From Bdellovibrionales bacterium CG10_big_fil_rev_8_21_14_0_10_45_34 (GTDB lineage Bacteria > Bdellovibrionota > Bdellovibrionia > Bdellovibrionales > 1-14-0-10-45-34), in the NCBI GenBank assembly GCA_002778785.1, contig PEZS01000007.1, forward strand, positions 10,119 through 74,118: 64,000 bases of DNA. The letters run 5' to 3'. Under the pieces are notes generated by a model. That model saw nothing but the letters and a program-made list of their open reading frames with translations. It had not been told where the DNA came from and searched no databases. Below are positions 5,830-39,524 of the stretch, piece by piece (the first letter of the stretch is position 1; each line of letters starts with the position of its first letter). A program made the translations under genes and the position numbers.

Positions 5830-7264
5830 GTCGAAATCGAGAGCAAGATCCATTTTTGTTTGTCAAAACTGTGGCGCTCAACGTCCGAAGTGGGAGGGCT
5901 ATTGTACCGACTGCAAATCCTGGAATTCCTTCGTTGAGGAGAAACTTCAGAAAGCAGCGCCCGACCAAGGTCGTGGTTGGGTAAGACCAGCAGTCGAAGA
6001 TTCTCCCATCGCACTGAATTCCGCTATTGCCAGCGCGGTCAGCCATGCTCCTTGCGGTATTGGCGAGTTAGACCGAGTGCTTGGAGGTGGATTTGTTGCA
6101 TCAAGTCTCATCTTACTGGGCGGGGAACCAGGGATAGGAAAGAGCACGCTCGTGCTACAAACTGCGGGAGCACTTAGCTCAATGGGTCTCAAAACTCTTT
6201 ATATCTCTGCAGAAGAAAGTCCGCAGCAGACCGCGTTACGGGCAGAGAGACTCGGCATCAGATCTGATCTCATAGAGGTAGCTTCACAATCAAATTTAGA
6301 GAAAATTTTGGAGTGGGCGAGCGAAAAGCAGCCCGATTTACTGATTATTGATTCTATTCAGACCATTTTTAGTCCCAGTCTTGAGGCAGCCCCAGGGTCA
6401 GTATCTCAGGTGAGGGATTGCGCAGCACAACTCCTACGTTGGACAAAATCGTCGAAAGCTTCGACTTGGATCATCGGTCACATCAATAAAGACGGACACA
6501 TTGCCGGGCCGAAGGTTCTTGAGCATATGGTAGATACGGTTTTGAACTTCGAGGGTGATCCTCATCAAAACTACCGAATCCTGCGCGCTATAAAGAATCG
6601 CTTTGGTGCCGCCGGCGAAATTGGTGTTTTTGAAATGCAAGGCATTGGCTTGGTAGAAGTGAGCAATCCTTCACAAATATTTTTAGGAGAGTCAGAAGTC
6701 GCTCAATCAGGCTGTTCCGCATTTGCCTCTATGGAAGGTGCAAGACCACTTGTTGTTGAGATTCAAGCTCTCTCTACTTTTTCTCCGCTGAACAATCCAC
6801 GCAGAGTTTCCGTTGGTATCGAGACGCAGCGGCTTCATATGATTTGCGCCGTTTTAGAAAAACATTTGCGTCTGCAGCTTTACCAGCGAGATGTGTTTGT
6901 GAACGTGATGGGTGGATTAAAAATTAGTGAGCCTGCCGCCGATCTAGCTGTTGCAGTGGCAATGTTGTCGAGCGAAGCTGGTAAGCCCTTAGCCAGTCGG
7001 CTCTGCGCCATTGGAGAGATTGGTCTTACGGGCGAAATAAGACCCGTTAACCAAATGGAGATGAGAGTCAAAGAAGCCTTAAGACTTGGGTTTAAGGCAC
7101 TTTATCTCCCACACTCCAGCAAAGAACGATTGAAAAGTGCCCTCTCAACCGCTGATAGCAAAAAGGTGCGCTGGCTTTCTTCGCTCAAGGAGCTTCACGA
7201 CATCAAAAGCAAAGTGCAAAAAAACTCATCCAAAGACGACGAGCTGGCGTTCAACTCTCCTTGA
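5828..7264 (+). CDS. radA: DNA repair/recombination ATPase RadA (Sms)
   Basis: 478 residues, normal RadA length. The N-terminal zinc finger is Cys12-x2-Cys15 and Cys26-x2-Cys29 (FVCQNCG...GYCTDC). The RecA-like core has a Walker A motif GGEPGIGKST and the diagnostic KNRFG motif (AIKNRFGAAGEIGVFEMQG). The C-terminal third is the Lon-protease-like domain (VFVNVMGGLKISEPAADLAVAVA). RadA drives branch migration of recombination intermediates in the cytoplasm. The ATG is well placed for the family, preceded by a weak ACGGAG element. It is divergent from slt with overlapping start regions, so its promoter must lie inside slt coding sequence. The next small gene starts on its stop codon. Confidence 0.97.
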   Translation: MSKSRARSIFVCQNCGAQRPKWEGYCTDCKSWNSFVEEKLQKAAPDQGRGWVRPAVEDSPIALNSAIASAVSHAPCGIGELDRVLGGGFVASSLILLGGEPGIGKSTLVLQTAGALSSMGLKTLYISAEESPQQTALRAERLGIRSDLIEVASQSNLEKILEWASEKQPDLLIIDSIQTIFSPSLEAAPGSVSQVRDCAAQLLRWTKSSKASTWIIGHINKDGHIAGPKVLEHMVDTVLNFEGDPHQNYRILRAIKNRFGAAGEIGVFEMQGIGLVEVSNPSQIFLGESEVAQSGCSAFASMEGARPLVVEIQALSTFSPLNNPRRVSVGIETQRLHMICAVLEKHLRLQLYQRDVFVNVMGGLKISEPAADLAVAVAMLSSEAGKPLASRLCAIGEIGLTGEIRPVNQMEMRVKEALRLGFKALYLPHSSKERLKSALSTADSKKVRWLSSLKELHDIKSKVQKNSSKDDELAFNSP

Positions 7265-35257: not shown

Positions 35258-36409
35258 TCAAAAATAACTGCCAGAGCGGATTTTCTCTAAAATAATCTTC
35301 TCTGGCATGATGGGATCTTTGGGATCCACCATAAACAGCGACTGCTGTTCACAGCGACGTTTATTTTTCAAAAGCCAATGCAAAATATCAGACAGTTTTC
35401 TGTTTCTCTTATCTTTAAAAAATGGATCATTCTGTAGGGCATCCTTTGCCTTTTTCAGCGCTCGCCCCTCTGCAACGTCTGACTCCTTCACAGCGTAGTC
35501 GTGCAGATCGTACTTTTTAATGTCTTCTGGTAAAACTCCAAGAAATTTCACGTCAGGCGCACTAAAATCACTATTTCGAATTAAACTAGCTGCACTTCCG
35601 GCCTTAAGAGTTCGATAAATATTTTGCATAGTGTAAGCATCCAGATCACCGAAGAAGAAAAGAGGAACCTTTAGCTGATCCTGAATGAGCTTACACCAAC
35701 CTCTCACGGCATTGCTCGGAACACCTTGAGCGCCCATCAAAATGCATTTATTCCTGCGTGTAAAACCGTTACTCACAAGCGTGTTCGCCGTGCCTTCTGA
35801 TTCGACAATCAATCCAAATTCTATCTTGCCTTTAGATTTGAGCTGCAGACTTTGTGGTCGGTTCTTTGGTTGAAACGGTGAAGTACCCAGAGAGCTCAAA
35901 TCAACAACGGCCTTATCACCATCAGGTAGGGTTTCTGTAACGATAAGCTGCTGCGAATAAGTCTGACCGCCGCGATCGTTGGCAAAACAGTTCATGTCTT
36001 CACGGTAGACTTCAAACATTTCACAAATGAAGTCTATAATAGAGTCACTTTCTTCCTGCTCTTGAAAATCTAGAGGACGAAGCTTTGGGTTGTACTTCAC
36101 TTCACCTTTTGAGATGTAATAAAGCTCCCTTTTTGTATTCACTGCGCCAGTTGATATGTTCCTGAGCAAAATTTCGAGCATAAAGACGGCTCGAGACATC
36201 TTTTGGACAGAAGATACATTGAGCTCGGTTTTTACTTTTTTGTCTCCGGGCGCTAAATAACCTATTTTCGGATCATAAAACGCATTATCTAAAGCGCACT
36301 TGGTGGCCTCAAGAACGGGCCGCTTCGCCGCTTCTAAATCTTTAAGCATCCTGTCGCATACGGCTTTAGCCAATCGAGGAATACCATCTTGTCTCGTTGA
36401 TGCTTTCAT
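35258..36409 (-). CDS. top6A: Type IIB DNA topoisomerase VI subunit A (Spo11-like)
   Basis: 383 residues, normal for the subunit. The CAP/winged-helix domain contains FMLEILLRNISTGAVNTKR followed by ELYYISK, where the YY pair includes the catalytic tyrosine that attacks DNA. The Toprim domain follows, with the metal-binding Glu in GLIVESEGTA and the DxD block FFGDLDAYTMQNIYRTLKAG. With subunit B it forms an A2B2 enzyme that relaxes and decatenates DNA by ATP-driven double-strand passage. Its ATG shares a base with the B stop (TAATG), so the two are coupled. Topo VI is typical of archaea and plants and is rare in bacteria. Confidence 0.93.
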   Translation of the reverse strand: MKASTRQDGIPRLAKAVCDRMLKDLEAAKRPVLEATKCALDNAFYDPKIGYLAPGDKKVKTELNVSSVQKMSRAVFMLEILLRNISTGAVNTKRELYYISKGEVKYNPKLRPLDFQEQEESDSIIDFICEMFEVYREDMNCFANDRGGQTYSQQLIVTETLPDGDKAVVDLSSLGTSPFQPKNRPQSLQLKSKGKIEFGLIVESEGTANTLVSNGFTRRNKCILMGAQGVPSNAVRGWCKLIQDQLKVPLFFFGDLDAYTMQNIYRTLKAGSAASLIRNSDFSAPDVKFLGVLPEDIKKYDLHDYAVKESDVAEGRALKKAKDALQNDPFFKDKRNRKLSDILHWLLKNKRRCEQQSLFMVDPKDPIMPEKIILEKIRSGSYF

Positions 36410-38331
36410 TACTTTTTGCCTCGCTTAGCCCCTTGAGAGCTTTTTTTACTCGGTGTCTTTGTTGTCGGCGTCTTTGTTGCAGGCGACTTACCCTTTGATT
36501 GTTTTTTGCCCAAAGCCTGTTTGGCTACCTTTTCAACATCAATGACATCGCGAGCTACTTTGCTGTTAACAATCCCATCATCGCTGATCACGTCAGACTC
36601 GGAGTATTCCTCGCCACCGCTGTCATCGCCAAATGTCGCGTTGAATTTAGCGCGAATAGCTTGTTGTGCCACTCTCAGTGATTCTAACTTTTCATCGGCT
36701 TGAGAGAGATCCTTTTCAGCGGCCGCAGCATCGCGCCCTAAAATCTTCATAAGACCCTCTTCAGCGCGCTTTTCTCTAGCCGGTGAAGCTCCTAAAATTC
36801 GCACTAGCCCTTCAACAAGCATCGGGCCAAATTTTTCTATGTGTTGAAGCTTTTTCTCAAGATCTGCTTCTTTGACCTCTTTTCGAATGTGCCGACTAAG
36901 TTTTTGACCTGCCTGCATACACGCTCGGCGAATCTCTTCAACAAGCTCTTCGCTCGCATCAACCGTTTCTTTTGAGGCATTCTTAAACTTAATAAACGGA
37001 GAAACCACACTAATGGCAAAAACATAGGGCCCAAGCGGCACAGAGTTTCTTGGCTGATTGAGTCCGTATGAGCGCCAGTTTACCGTTTCAATTGCCTTAG
37101 TGATGGCGCAACCCGCTTTGTCAAACTGCAAAGGAACGCGGTTCGCAAAGCGAAGCACTTGAAGCGGCTGGTCTTCTGAACCACGATTCTTAAACCTAGC
37201 AAGCGCCACTTCTACAGAGACGGGCTTAGAATCACAAATGCGAGGTTTTCTGGTAACAACGCTAAAGAAATCTACATCGCCTAAACGCAAAATACTTTGA
37301 GCCAGAGCGTCTTCTCCTACTGACAGAACCGATTTTGTACTCGGCGGTACAAGCTCGGTGTCTTGTAGGGTCTGGTAAATCGATTTGAATTGCGCTTCGG
37401 AGAGCGCATTAACGGACTTTTCAAAGAGGGCCTTAGGTATCCCTTTCTTATTGAGCTCTGTAATTGTTGCGTCAGTTAATCGAGTAAAGCCTGTTTTCAA
37501 GAACTTCCTGAGCGGCACTTTGCCAAACAAATGAGCATGAGTCATAAATTCGCCAAGTTTTAGCGTATGCGGGTGCGGTGCTACCGCCGTGGGTATCAAG
37601 GGCACTTTTTCGCTGACTCTTTCAACGCGAACCTCGTCGGCATCTAGAAGCTTATAAACTAAGGTCAAATGAGGGTTCACAAGGGTCGTGCCCTCAAGAT
37701 AGGTCATCAGCCCACCATCGCCGTTCAGCTGCACACGGCCATCGAGCATAAACTCTACAAGGACGCCGTGAGGCCTATCCCAATCGATCGTCTTTTTTTC
37801 TCGAAAGACTCCCTTATTTTTTTTGATATCAACATCTATAAGGGCTTCAATGGCCTTTTTCATGCGTTTGGTTTTGCTAATGACTCGGGCACCCTTGGCG
37901 TTGGTGAGTTGGGCCCAGGTGGTTGCTGCCGAAATCCCGATCCCCTGCTGGCCGCGTGTACATTGCCCTCGCCCAAACTTTGAGGAGGCCAAATACTCGC
38001 CATATACCATTAAAAGGTCGTCTTGCTCGATTCCAGGGCCGTTGTCCTCAATGAGAAGCCTTATCAAGTCTGTGTTTTTCTGCGCGCCTGGGCCGACTTT
38101 TGAGATCTCAATGCGCAGCTCGGGGAGTATTTCTGCCACTTCGCACGCGTCCAAAGAGTTGTCTACAGCCTCTTTCAAGGTTGTAAGCACAGCTTTCGTG
38201 GGAGACGAAAAACCGACTTGCTGAAGGTTTTTTGCGAAATATTCTGCTGTTGAACTGGTTGTAATTTGCTGTGTTGCCAAAGAAAGTCTCCGTATTGACT
38301 CATTATGAACAGAAACTCCCTCAGTGAGCAA
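36409..38331 (-). CDS. top6B: Type IIB DNA topoisomerase VI subunit B (GHKL ATPase)
   Basis: 640 residues from TTG 38331; an alternative TTG at 38280 would have a better-spaced CGGAGA. The GHKL ATPase domain shows LKEAVDNSLDACEVAEI, LLIEDNGPGIEQDDL and FGRGQCTRGQQGIGISAATTW; the H2TH-like and transducer domains follow, the latter with VPLQFDKAGCAITKAIE. The last 100 residues include an acidic segment and a very basic K/P/T/S-rich tail (KKQSKGKSPATKTP) reminiscent of histone-H1-type tails, an add-on to the core enzyme. ATP binding dimerises B and drives strand passage by A. The two genes stand alone as a bicistron. Confidence 0.93.
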   Translation of the reverse strand: MLTEGVSVHNESIRRLSLATQQITTSSTAEYFAKNLQQVGFSSPTKAVLTTLKEAVDNSLDACEVAEILPELRIEISKVGPGAQKNTDLIRLLIEDNGPGIEQDDLLMVYGEYLASSKFGRGQCTRGQQGIGISAATTWAQLTNAKGARVISKTKRMKKAIEALIDVDIKKNKGVFREKKTIDWDRPHGVLVEFMLDGRVQLNGDGGLMTYLEGTTLVNPHLTLVYKLLDADEVRVERVSEKVPLIPTAVAPHPHTLKLGEFMTHAHLFGKVPLRKFLKTGFTRLTDATITELNKKGIPKALFEKSVNALSEAQFKSIYQTLQDTELVPPSTKSVLSVGEDALAQSILRLGDVDFFSVVTRKPRICDSKPVSVEVALARFKNRGSEDQPLQVLRFANRVPLQFDKAGCAITKAIETVNWRSYGLNQPRNSVPLGPYVFAISVVSPFIKFKNASKETVDASEELVEEIRRACMQAGQKLSRHIRKEVKEADLEKKLQHIEKFGPMLVEGLVRILGASPAREKRAEEGLMKILGRDAAAAEKDLSQADEKLESLRVAQQAIRAKFNATFGDDSGGEEYSESDVISDDGIVNSKVARDVIDVEKVAKQALGKKQSKGKSPATKTPTTKTPSKKSSQGAKRGKK

Positions 38332-38765: not shown

Positions 38766-39221
38766 ATGAAAAGCAAGATCTTGGGCTCATTACTAGCGCT
38801 AACTTTAACTTCGCTAGTGGGCTGCACAGACAAAGAAGAAAAAGCGGAAACTAAAGACGAAGCAGCAGCTCCAGTAACCAAAACTGAGGACGCACCGACT
38901 ACTTTACAAAGTAAAGACGTCAAAGTTGGCGAGGGCGACGAAGCTAAATCTGGAGACAAAGTAAAAGTTCACTACGTTGGAACCTTGATGGATGGAACAA
39001 AATTTGATTCCTCACGGGACCGTAACGAGCCTTTTGAATTTGATATTGGCAAAGGCATGGTCATTAAAGGTTGGGACGAAGGCGTTGCCGGAATGAAAAA
39101 AGGTGGAGTGAGAGAGTTAGTTATCCCGCCATCTTTGGGCTATGGTGATCAGGCTGTTGGGCCCATCCCTGCCAATTCAACTCTTAAGTTTGAAGTCGAA
39201 CTTGTAGAGATCGTAAAATAG
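38766..39221 (+). CDS. FKBP-type peptidyl-prolyl isomerase lipoprotein
   Basis: 151 residues. A signal peptide ends in the lipobox LVGC with Cys20 (SLLALTLTSLVGC), then a short acidic linker (DKEEKAETKDEAAAP) and an FKBP domain from about residue 50: SGDKVKVHYVGTLMDGTKFD, SSRDRNEPFEFDIGKGMVIKG, WDEGVAGMKKGGVRELVIPP, LGYGDQAVGPIPANSTLKFE. It catalyses proline isomerisation on the periplasmic side, helping protein folding. An AGGAGAAG ribosome site precedes the ATG and a terminator follows the stop. Confidence 0.95.
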   Translation: MKSKILGSLLALTLTSLVGCTDKEEKAETKDEAAAPVTKTEDAPTTLQSKDVKVGEGDEAKSGDKVKVHYVGTLMDGTKFDSSRDRNEPFEFDIGKGMVIKGWDEGVAGMKKGGVRELVIPPSLGYGDQAVGPIPANSTLKFEVELVEIVK

Positions 39222-39229
39222 TTTTCCTT

Positions 39230-39254
39230 AAAAGGCTCTTTAGGTGCCTTTTTT
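39230..39254. terminator. Rho-independent terminator after the FKBP gene
   Basis: AAAAGGC (39230-39236), nine-base loop, GCCTTTT (39246-39252), then two more T. The right half lies over the last codons of the convergent HNH gene, so the hairpin could act on both transcripts. Confidence 0.75.
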
Positions 39255-39524
39255 CTGAGCGTCGTTTTGTAGCCCCGCTAAGACGATTTCTGCGGGGGTG
39301 AGATAGGTTTTTTTATTATTACAGTCTTTACAACAGGGCACGATGTTGCCCTTTGTTGATCTTCCGCCTCTAGAGAGCGGTATTTTGTGGTCCATGGTCA
39401 GCTCATTCGGAGCAAATGTCTTTTCACAATAAAAACAAACCCCTTTTGCCAGCTGTTGCTTCCACCACTGACTCTGCCTGAGCTCCCTCGCCTTCTGCTT
39501 TTCTTTTTGGGTTTTTACAGCCAT
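39240..39524 (-). CDS. Small HNH endonuclease family protein
   Basis: 94 residues. HNH signature: zinc cysteines in CFYCEKTFAPN, then LTMDHKIPLSRGGRSTKGNIV with the catalytic histidine, and CCKDCNNKKTYLTPAE with the second cysteine pair and Asn. The N-terminus is basic (KTQKEKQKARELRQSQWWKQ). HNH proteins nick or cut DNA or RNA; stand-alone versions act in defence, recombination or as phage packaging nucleases, and the role here cannot be told. Its 3' end overlaps the FKBP terminator. ATG at 39524 with no strong ribosome site. Confidence 0.88.
   Translation of the reverse strand: MAVKTQKEKQKARELRQSQWWKQQLAKGVCFYCEKTFAPNELTMDHKIPLSRGGRSTKGNIVPCCKDCNNKKTYLTPAEIVLAGLQNDAQKKGT

Follow-up and report, generated by a model that had tools for sequence, protein, structure and literature searches.

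The window, a stretch of 64,000 nucleotides from the Bdellovibrionales bacterium CG10_big_fil_rev_8_21_14_0_10_45_34, carries two genes that, judged by their sequences, encode a complete type IIB topoisomerase, topoisomerase VI (topo VI, A2B2). Taken as a whole, the findings are best read as topo VI replacing topoisomerase IV (topo IV) as chromosomal decatenase, with a C-terminal tail of the B subunit tethering the enzyme to DNA, and we consider this reading probable. Genome content supports the decatenase role in place of topo IV well; activity, the role in vivo and the function of the tail are inferred. The enzyme belongs to a known family in a clade from which it has already been reported; worth following are the phylum-wide exchange of the decatenase and a lysine tail linked to the job. 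Coordinates are collected in Table 1.

Table 1 Features at the top6 locus, in positions of the window
Feature	Position	Strand	Remarks
top6A, topo VI A subunit, 383 aa	35258..36409	-	Winged-helix domain with YY 97-98, Toprim
top6B, B subunit of topo VI, 623 aa with the probable start TTG 38280	36409..38280	-	Listed ORF reaches 38331
TAATG stop/start overlap joining top6B to top6A	36407..36411	-	
Disordered C-terminal extension, Top6B residues 549-623	36412..36636	-	Predicted, pLDDT < 50
Acidic stretch DDSGGEEYSESDVISDDG, Top6B residues 552-569	36574..36627	-	
Basic tail KKQSKGKSPATKTPTTKTPSKKSSQGAKRGKK, Top6B residues 592-623	36412..36507	-	
FKBP-type prolyl isomerase gene	38766..39221	+	Between hnh and top6B here; context only
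Small HNH protein	39240..39524	-	Precedes top6B on the same strand in most of the order's loci
ORF of 1144 aa	41675-45109	-	No Pfam match

In the ORF list of the window top6A and top6B are intact, separate, full-length genes on the minus strand. Pfam matches were PF21180 (2e-37) and TP6A_N (1.5e-14) for Top6A, the transducer PF09239 (topo VI-B, 8e-45) and HATPase for Top6B. Top6B passed the NCBIfam Top6B equivalog NF003218 with 502 bits at a cut-off of 274. The best NCBIfam Top6A model gave 394 bits, just below its cut-off of 424, thus Top6A belongs to a divergent subgroup. In PDB sequence searches the Top6A motifs RELYYISK and FGDLDAY (Toprim) aligned with archaeal structures, as did the Top6B N-box KEAVDNSLDACE, EDNGPGI, RGQQGIGIS and the switch-lysine segment KNASKET. 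The A subunit has the winged-helix YY pair and the Toprim domain at full length, the B subunit the GHKL ATPase, the H2TH region and the transducer. The N-box, the G1 and G2 boxes, the switch-lysine segment and a W..Y motif were invariant or nearly so in an alignment of 29 sequences of relatives. In topo VI a WKxY motif contacts the DNA arms (PMC13040014); the aligned place reads WRSY, with W and Y invariant in the 29 sequences. The first-pass annotation had described an intact A and B pair with catalytic YY, Toprim and GHKL motifs and a TAATG junction, and all of this was confirmed.

The start of top6B is probably the TTG at 38280 and not the one at 38331. At TTG 38331 a single base separates the start codon from the AGGAGG-like motif before it, while TTG 38280 has a GGAGA 6-7 nt upstream. 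This start is preferred because the spacing to the GGAGA is normal and the relatives begin there: the protein then opens with MATQQITTSSTAEYF, coinciding with the onset of homology and the likely starts of relatives, e.g., MATRAITSSSTAEYF in the related locus L107. Scans for promoters and terminators stayed at chance level. The AlphaFold2 model of Top6B (mean pLDDT 76.8) has a confident GHKL-to-transducer body with long helices to about residue 550, and the first Foldseek matches were the Top6B structures of Methanosarcina mazei and Saccharolobus shibatae (E 1.9e-46, 32 % identity). All catalytic and ATPase motifs and the GHKL-H2TH-transducer fold are common to these archaeal enzymes (2q2e/9o0g and 2zbk, respectively) and the topo VI of the window. 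M. mazei Top6B ends in an Ig-like domain, whereas the window's protein has a disordered acidic/basic tail at this place; no strands were predicted in residues 549-623 that could form such a domain, known from gyrase-bearing archaea. The tail is unlike archaeal B subunits, in line with the earlier remark that it was not familiar from them.

The source genome of 3.06 Mb is estimated to be 100 % complete and belongs to the Bdellovibrio order, with relatives at 63-74 % identity. It has a single gyrB (817 aa) and, adjoining it, a single gyrA (837 aa) with the GyrA-box variant QNRGGRG and a full C-terminal part. ParC/ParE were not found in the source genome, which has no second PF00521 or PF00204 gene, therefore topo VI is the only other type II enzyme found. 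The first-pass annotation had raised the question of gyrase and topo IV; the answer is gyrase present, topo IV absent. Topo IV shares with topo VI the proposed role, decatenation beside gyrase, but is of type IIA, and its A subunit is a different one.

A survey of 290 Bdellovibrionota genomes with the markers PF09239 (Top6B), PF00521 (GyrA/ParC) and PF00204 (GyrB) detected Top6B in 172 genomes, including 94 of the 96 of the Bdellovibrio order. One of the two exceptions, G278, is a 790-contig assembly in which top6A is present. In the other, G240, a whole block is missing: topo VI is absent together with the HNH orthologue and with the aconitase found next to top6 in the sister genome. This speaks for an assembly gap, and a loss of topo VI was rejected here. 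The proposal of a lineage-fixed enzyme thus holds for the order, while the statement that topo VI is only sporadic in bacteria does not fit the Bdellovibrionota, where it is the norm. Among genomes at least 90 % complete, exactly one PF00521 gene was present in 140 of 146 with topo VI, two or more in 67 of 79 without it. Topo VI and a second type IIA enzyme thus almost exclude each other. The PF00204 counts, made for 57 selected genomes, agree: one gene in 30 of the 32 with topo VI, two in G022 and none in G030. Five near-complete topo VI genomes had extra PF00521 matches; four of them have only one GyrB and look like cases of split gyrA. Only G022, a topo VI genome with 5 % contamination, may be a real exception: it carries a ParE/ParC-like pair on an 8.6 kb contig (C83, L131), and it may hold three enzymes or the contig may be a contaminant, the GC content being compatible with both. 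The topo VI-less family f11 has a second full-length GyrB-like/GyrA-like pair beside gyrase (L182-L184, L191-L193). In families f13 and f21 (L130, L176-L178; G003, G012, G020, G028; about 1.2-2 Mb) gyrase was the sole type II topoisomerase seen. They appear to live with gyrase alone, thus a dedicated decatenase is not strictly required.

Topo VI of Bdellovibrio is already known, and the phylum-wide scale of the distribution is what is newly added. In Allen & Maxwell 2024 B. bacteriovorus is listed with gyrase and topo VI, and the authors pointed out that bacterial topo VI does not always replace topo IV (PMC11302465). A Bdellovibrio review, the only paper naming either gene in our literature search for Bd2864/Bd2865, labels Bd0005 'Top IV' and Bd2865 'Top II' (PMC11318664). 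In complete genomes of family f2 the sole PF00521 gene adjoins gyrB near position 6500, and this gene position suggests that the review's 'Top IV' is GyrA and its 'Top II' Top6B. B. bacteriovorus (Bd2864/Bd2865) and other Bdellovibrionota have orthologous A and B subunits in the same gene order (PMC11302465, PMC11318664), and gyrase without topo IV, as in the window's genome. The window organism is another family-level member relative to B. bacteriovorus and has the longer tail, 91 versus 57 aa past the last conserved helix, rich in P/T/S.

The genome search covered Bdellovibrionota, and one contig scan yielded essentially only Bdellovibrionota-like loci. In the A and B trees a branch with full support (100) held all Bdellovibrio-type sequences together. 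The sequences of f14/f18 (L002-L007, L133, L134, L153) fell outside this branch, therefore two topo VI lineages exist in the phylum. The second lineage, about 35 % identical, has the A and B pair in a gyrase-only background as here, but no basic tail. The archaeal rows formed very long branches of unreliable order, and the joint trees show only the separation of the lineages. In the B tree topo VI of f24 (L151/L047) and f27 (L022/L095) branched from within the window's order (99/99), although the gyrases of these two families were placed elsewhere (98), which points to horizontal transfer inside the phylum. On the gyrase tree the type II complement requires only six changes, thus the phylum-wide correlation rests on few independent events.

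The tail of Top6B is real, disordered and recurrent in relatives. The acidic-then-basic order noticed in the first-pass annotation is present in the window's protein, in a segment predicted as disordered (pLDDT about 30-35), and tails of this kind are rare among neighbouring proteins. The last 40 residues contain 14 K/R and no D/E; with a best 20-residue net charge of +7, this lysine-rich end is less dense in lysine than those of the strongest relatives. A threshold of at least 8 Lys in 20 residues within the last 60 residues was reached by 36 of 77 Top6B, one of 50 Top6A and two of 423 other proteins of the same loci; the Fisher p of 6e-31 is indicative only, as the rows are related and independence is overstated. 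In the 89 B subunits of the Bdellovibrio type, 8 to 292 aa (median 62) follow the last conserved helix, and 56 of these subunits had a 20-residue window with a net charge of at least +5. The composition ranged from K-rich to T/A-rich, and in all 54 tails with both stretches the acidic one preceded the basic one. Recurrence in relatives was thus found, universality was not: about half of the Top6B proteins are without a strongly lysine-rich tail, those of L016 and L095 have no tail, and outside the Bdellovibrio order (f20, f15, f14/f18) it is weaker or missing. A tail that is common and not universal cannot be essential to the basic topo VI reaction. The C-terminal ends of GyrB were acidic in 42 of 42 genomes (net -2 to -7). 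One search of the literature turned up no earlier account of lysine-rich tails on Top6B. Another long protein ending in perfect ATKKK repeats is encoded at L110:9618-12311 (+).

Topo VI enzymes pass DNA strands in an ATP-dependent reaction, through breaks with 2-nt overhangs made by an A2B2 complex. By homology, Top6B would bind ATP and clamp onto DNA, Top6A would cleave the bent G-segment via the tyrosine and the Toprim metal site, and the T-segment would then be passed through. With gyrase as the sole other type II enzyme, topo VI would act as chromosomal decatenase in the place of topo IV. For the M. mazei enzyme decatenation is the preferred reaction, and supercoils are relaxed slowly and distributively (PMC8837201). 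Allen & Maxwell also mention, as an unpublished result, that M. mazei topo VI complemented an E. coli parE ts mutant (PMC11302465). Set off by the acidic linker, the lysine-rich disordered tail most likely acts as a sequence-independent DNA binder. It may hold a slow, distributive enzyme on the chromosome, resulting in a higher effective affinity or processivity on entangled sisters. The analogy is taken from actinobacterial TopA, which carries histone H1-like lysine repeats at its C-terminus as Top6B does, although it is a type IA enzyme with an unrelated catalytic domain. In Streptomyces TopA these repeats confer processivity, and they matter when multigenomic hyphae sporulate (PMC7398561). 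A recurrent lysine tail is a simple, portable element by which a topoisomerase that works slowly and distributively may become a decatenase on the scale of the chromosome.

A second replacement was observed in f17, a large family without topo VI which we infer to be the Halobacteriovorax/Bacteriovorax group. Its second type II enzyme is encoded by two adjacent genes for 716 and 481 aa (L128:3383-6988, +) and scores far below every NCBIfam cut-off for gyrase and topo IV. It matches two phage families of topo II, phrog_543 with 470 bits and phrog_551 with 367 bits, and the large subunit matches 2159 phage records at about 30 % identity. A PDB search with the small subunit gave, among its best relatives, topo II of eukaryotes and the medium subunit of a phage-type enzyme. 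The f17 enzyme is a chromosomal topo II resembling that of phage T4, not a topo IV. The same large subunit was present in all seven further f17 loci (L196-L202), and in this family the phage-type enzyme seems to have been fixed as a cellular one. Five of the seven large subunits have 9-11 Lys in 20 residues of their tail; the lysine-rich tail was absent from four phage homologues. Two unrelated replacements, Top6B and the f17 topo II, thus appear to have gained a tail separately. A wider view, which we hold tentatively and rate at somewhat less than an even chance, is that the decatenase of the Bdellovibrionota was exchanged several times, and that in at least two unrelated replacements the ATPase subunit gained a histone H1-like lysine tail of its own; the tail would then follow the cellular job and not the protein family. 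The near-clean exchange by more than one route, in a phylum with a cultivable predator, makes the replacement of topo IV a directly testable question.

Other readings were weighed. The tail may be a neutral, fast-evolving low-complexity extension, generated by repeat slippage and without a selected role, as its variation in length (8 to 292 aa) and composition (K-rich to T/A-rich) and its absence in some relatives would suggest. The enrichment over neighbouring proteins (36/77 versus 2/423), the acidic-then-basic order kept in 54 of 54 cases and the similar tail on the unrelated f17 enzyme, lacking on its phage relatives, render a neutral origin unlikely. We regard it as quite unlikely that the enzyme is topo VI yet has mainly a specialised job, e.g., relaxation of supercoils or resolution of tangles in multinucleoid filaments inside the prey, while gyrase does most of the unlinking. 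Only gyrase was seen in f13 and f21, so gyrase can suffice, and the growing Bdellovibrio cell is a filament that contains many chromosomes (PMC11318664). The near-perfect replacement pattern versus a second type IIA enzyme favours the role of topo IV instead, as does the preference for decatenation published for topo VI (PMC8837201), and topo VI is widespread in families of unknown lifestyle. A link of topo VI to filamentous predatory growth would be attractive; it is not established that such growth is the specific reason, because topo VI occurs also far outside the order, in genomes of unknown lifestyle.

A recent mobile acquisition, or a defence-type homologue such as topo VIII or a Wadjet/MksG-like nuclease, is highly improbable and largely refuted by the distribution. 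Topo VIII is a single polypeptide fusing A- and B-like parts; the genes of the window are two, separate and of full length, chromosomal and order-wide. That topo VIII is plasmid-borne, and that Toprim homologues occur in defence systems (PMC11302465, PMC13040014), lends this reading some ground, as does the apparent horizontal gain of topo VI in f24 and f27. Against it stand the presence in 94 of 96 genomes of the order, the single clade in the A and B trees and a stable local synteny. No topo VI homologue was found in phage records and viral contigs (IMG/VR), and a plasmid search returned only haloarchaeal megaplasmids with a real topo VI and one weak Synechococcus plasmid match (38 % of the query). 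Replacement of topo IV by topo VI remains the preferred reading.

In 55 of 61 loci of the order (L032-L111 among the loci) the gene of the small HNH protein is located upstream of top6B on the same strand. The HNH protein was considered as a third partner of topo VI and rejected, because its orthologues are unlinked or absent elsewhere and other neighbours are also conserved: orthologues are unlinked in other families and in the topo VI-less f11, missing from several topo VI families and about 14 kb from top6 in a Bdellovibrio genome, and bolA and a monothiol glutaredoxin gene are conserved near top6B, too. The adjacency of hnh and top6B is treated as conserved microsynteny.
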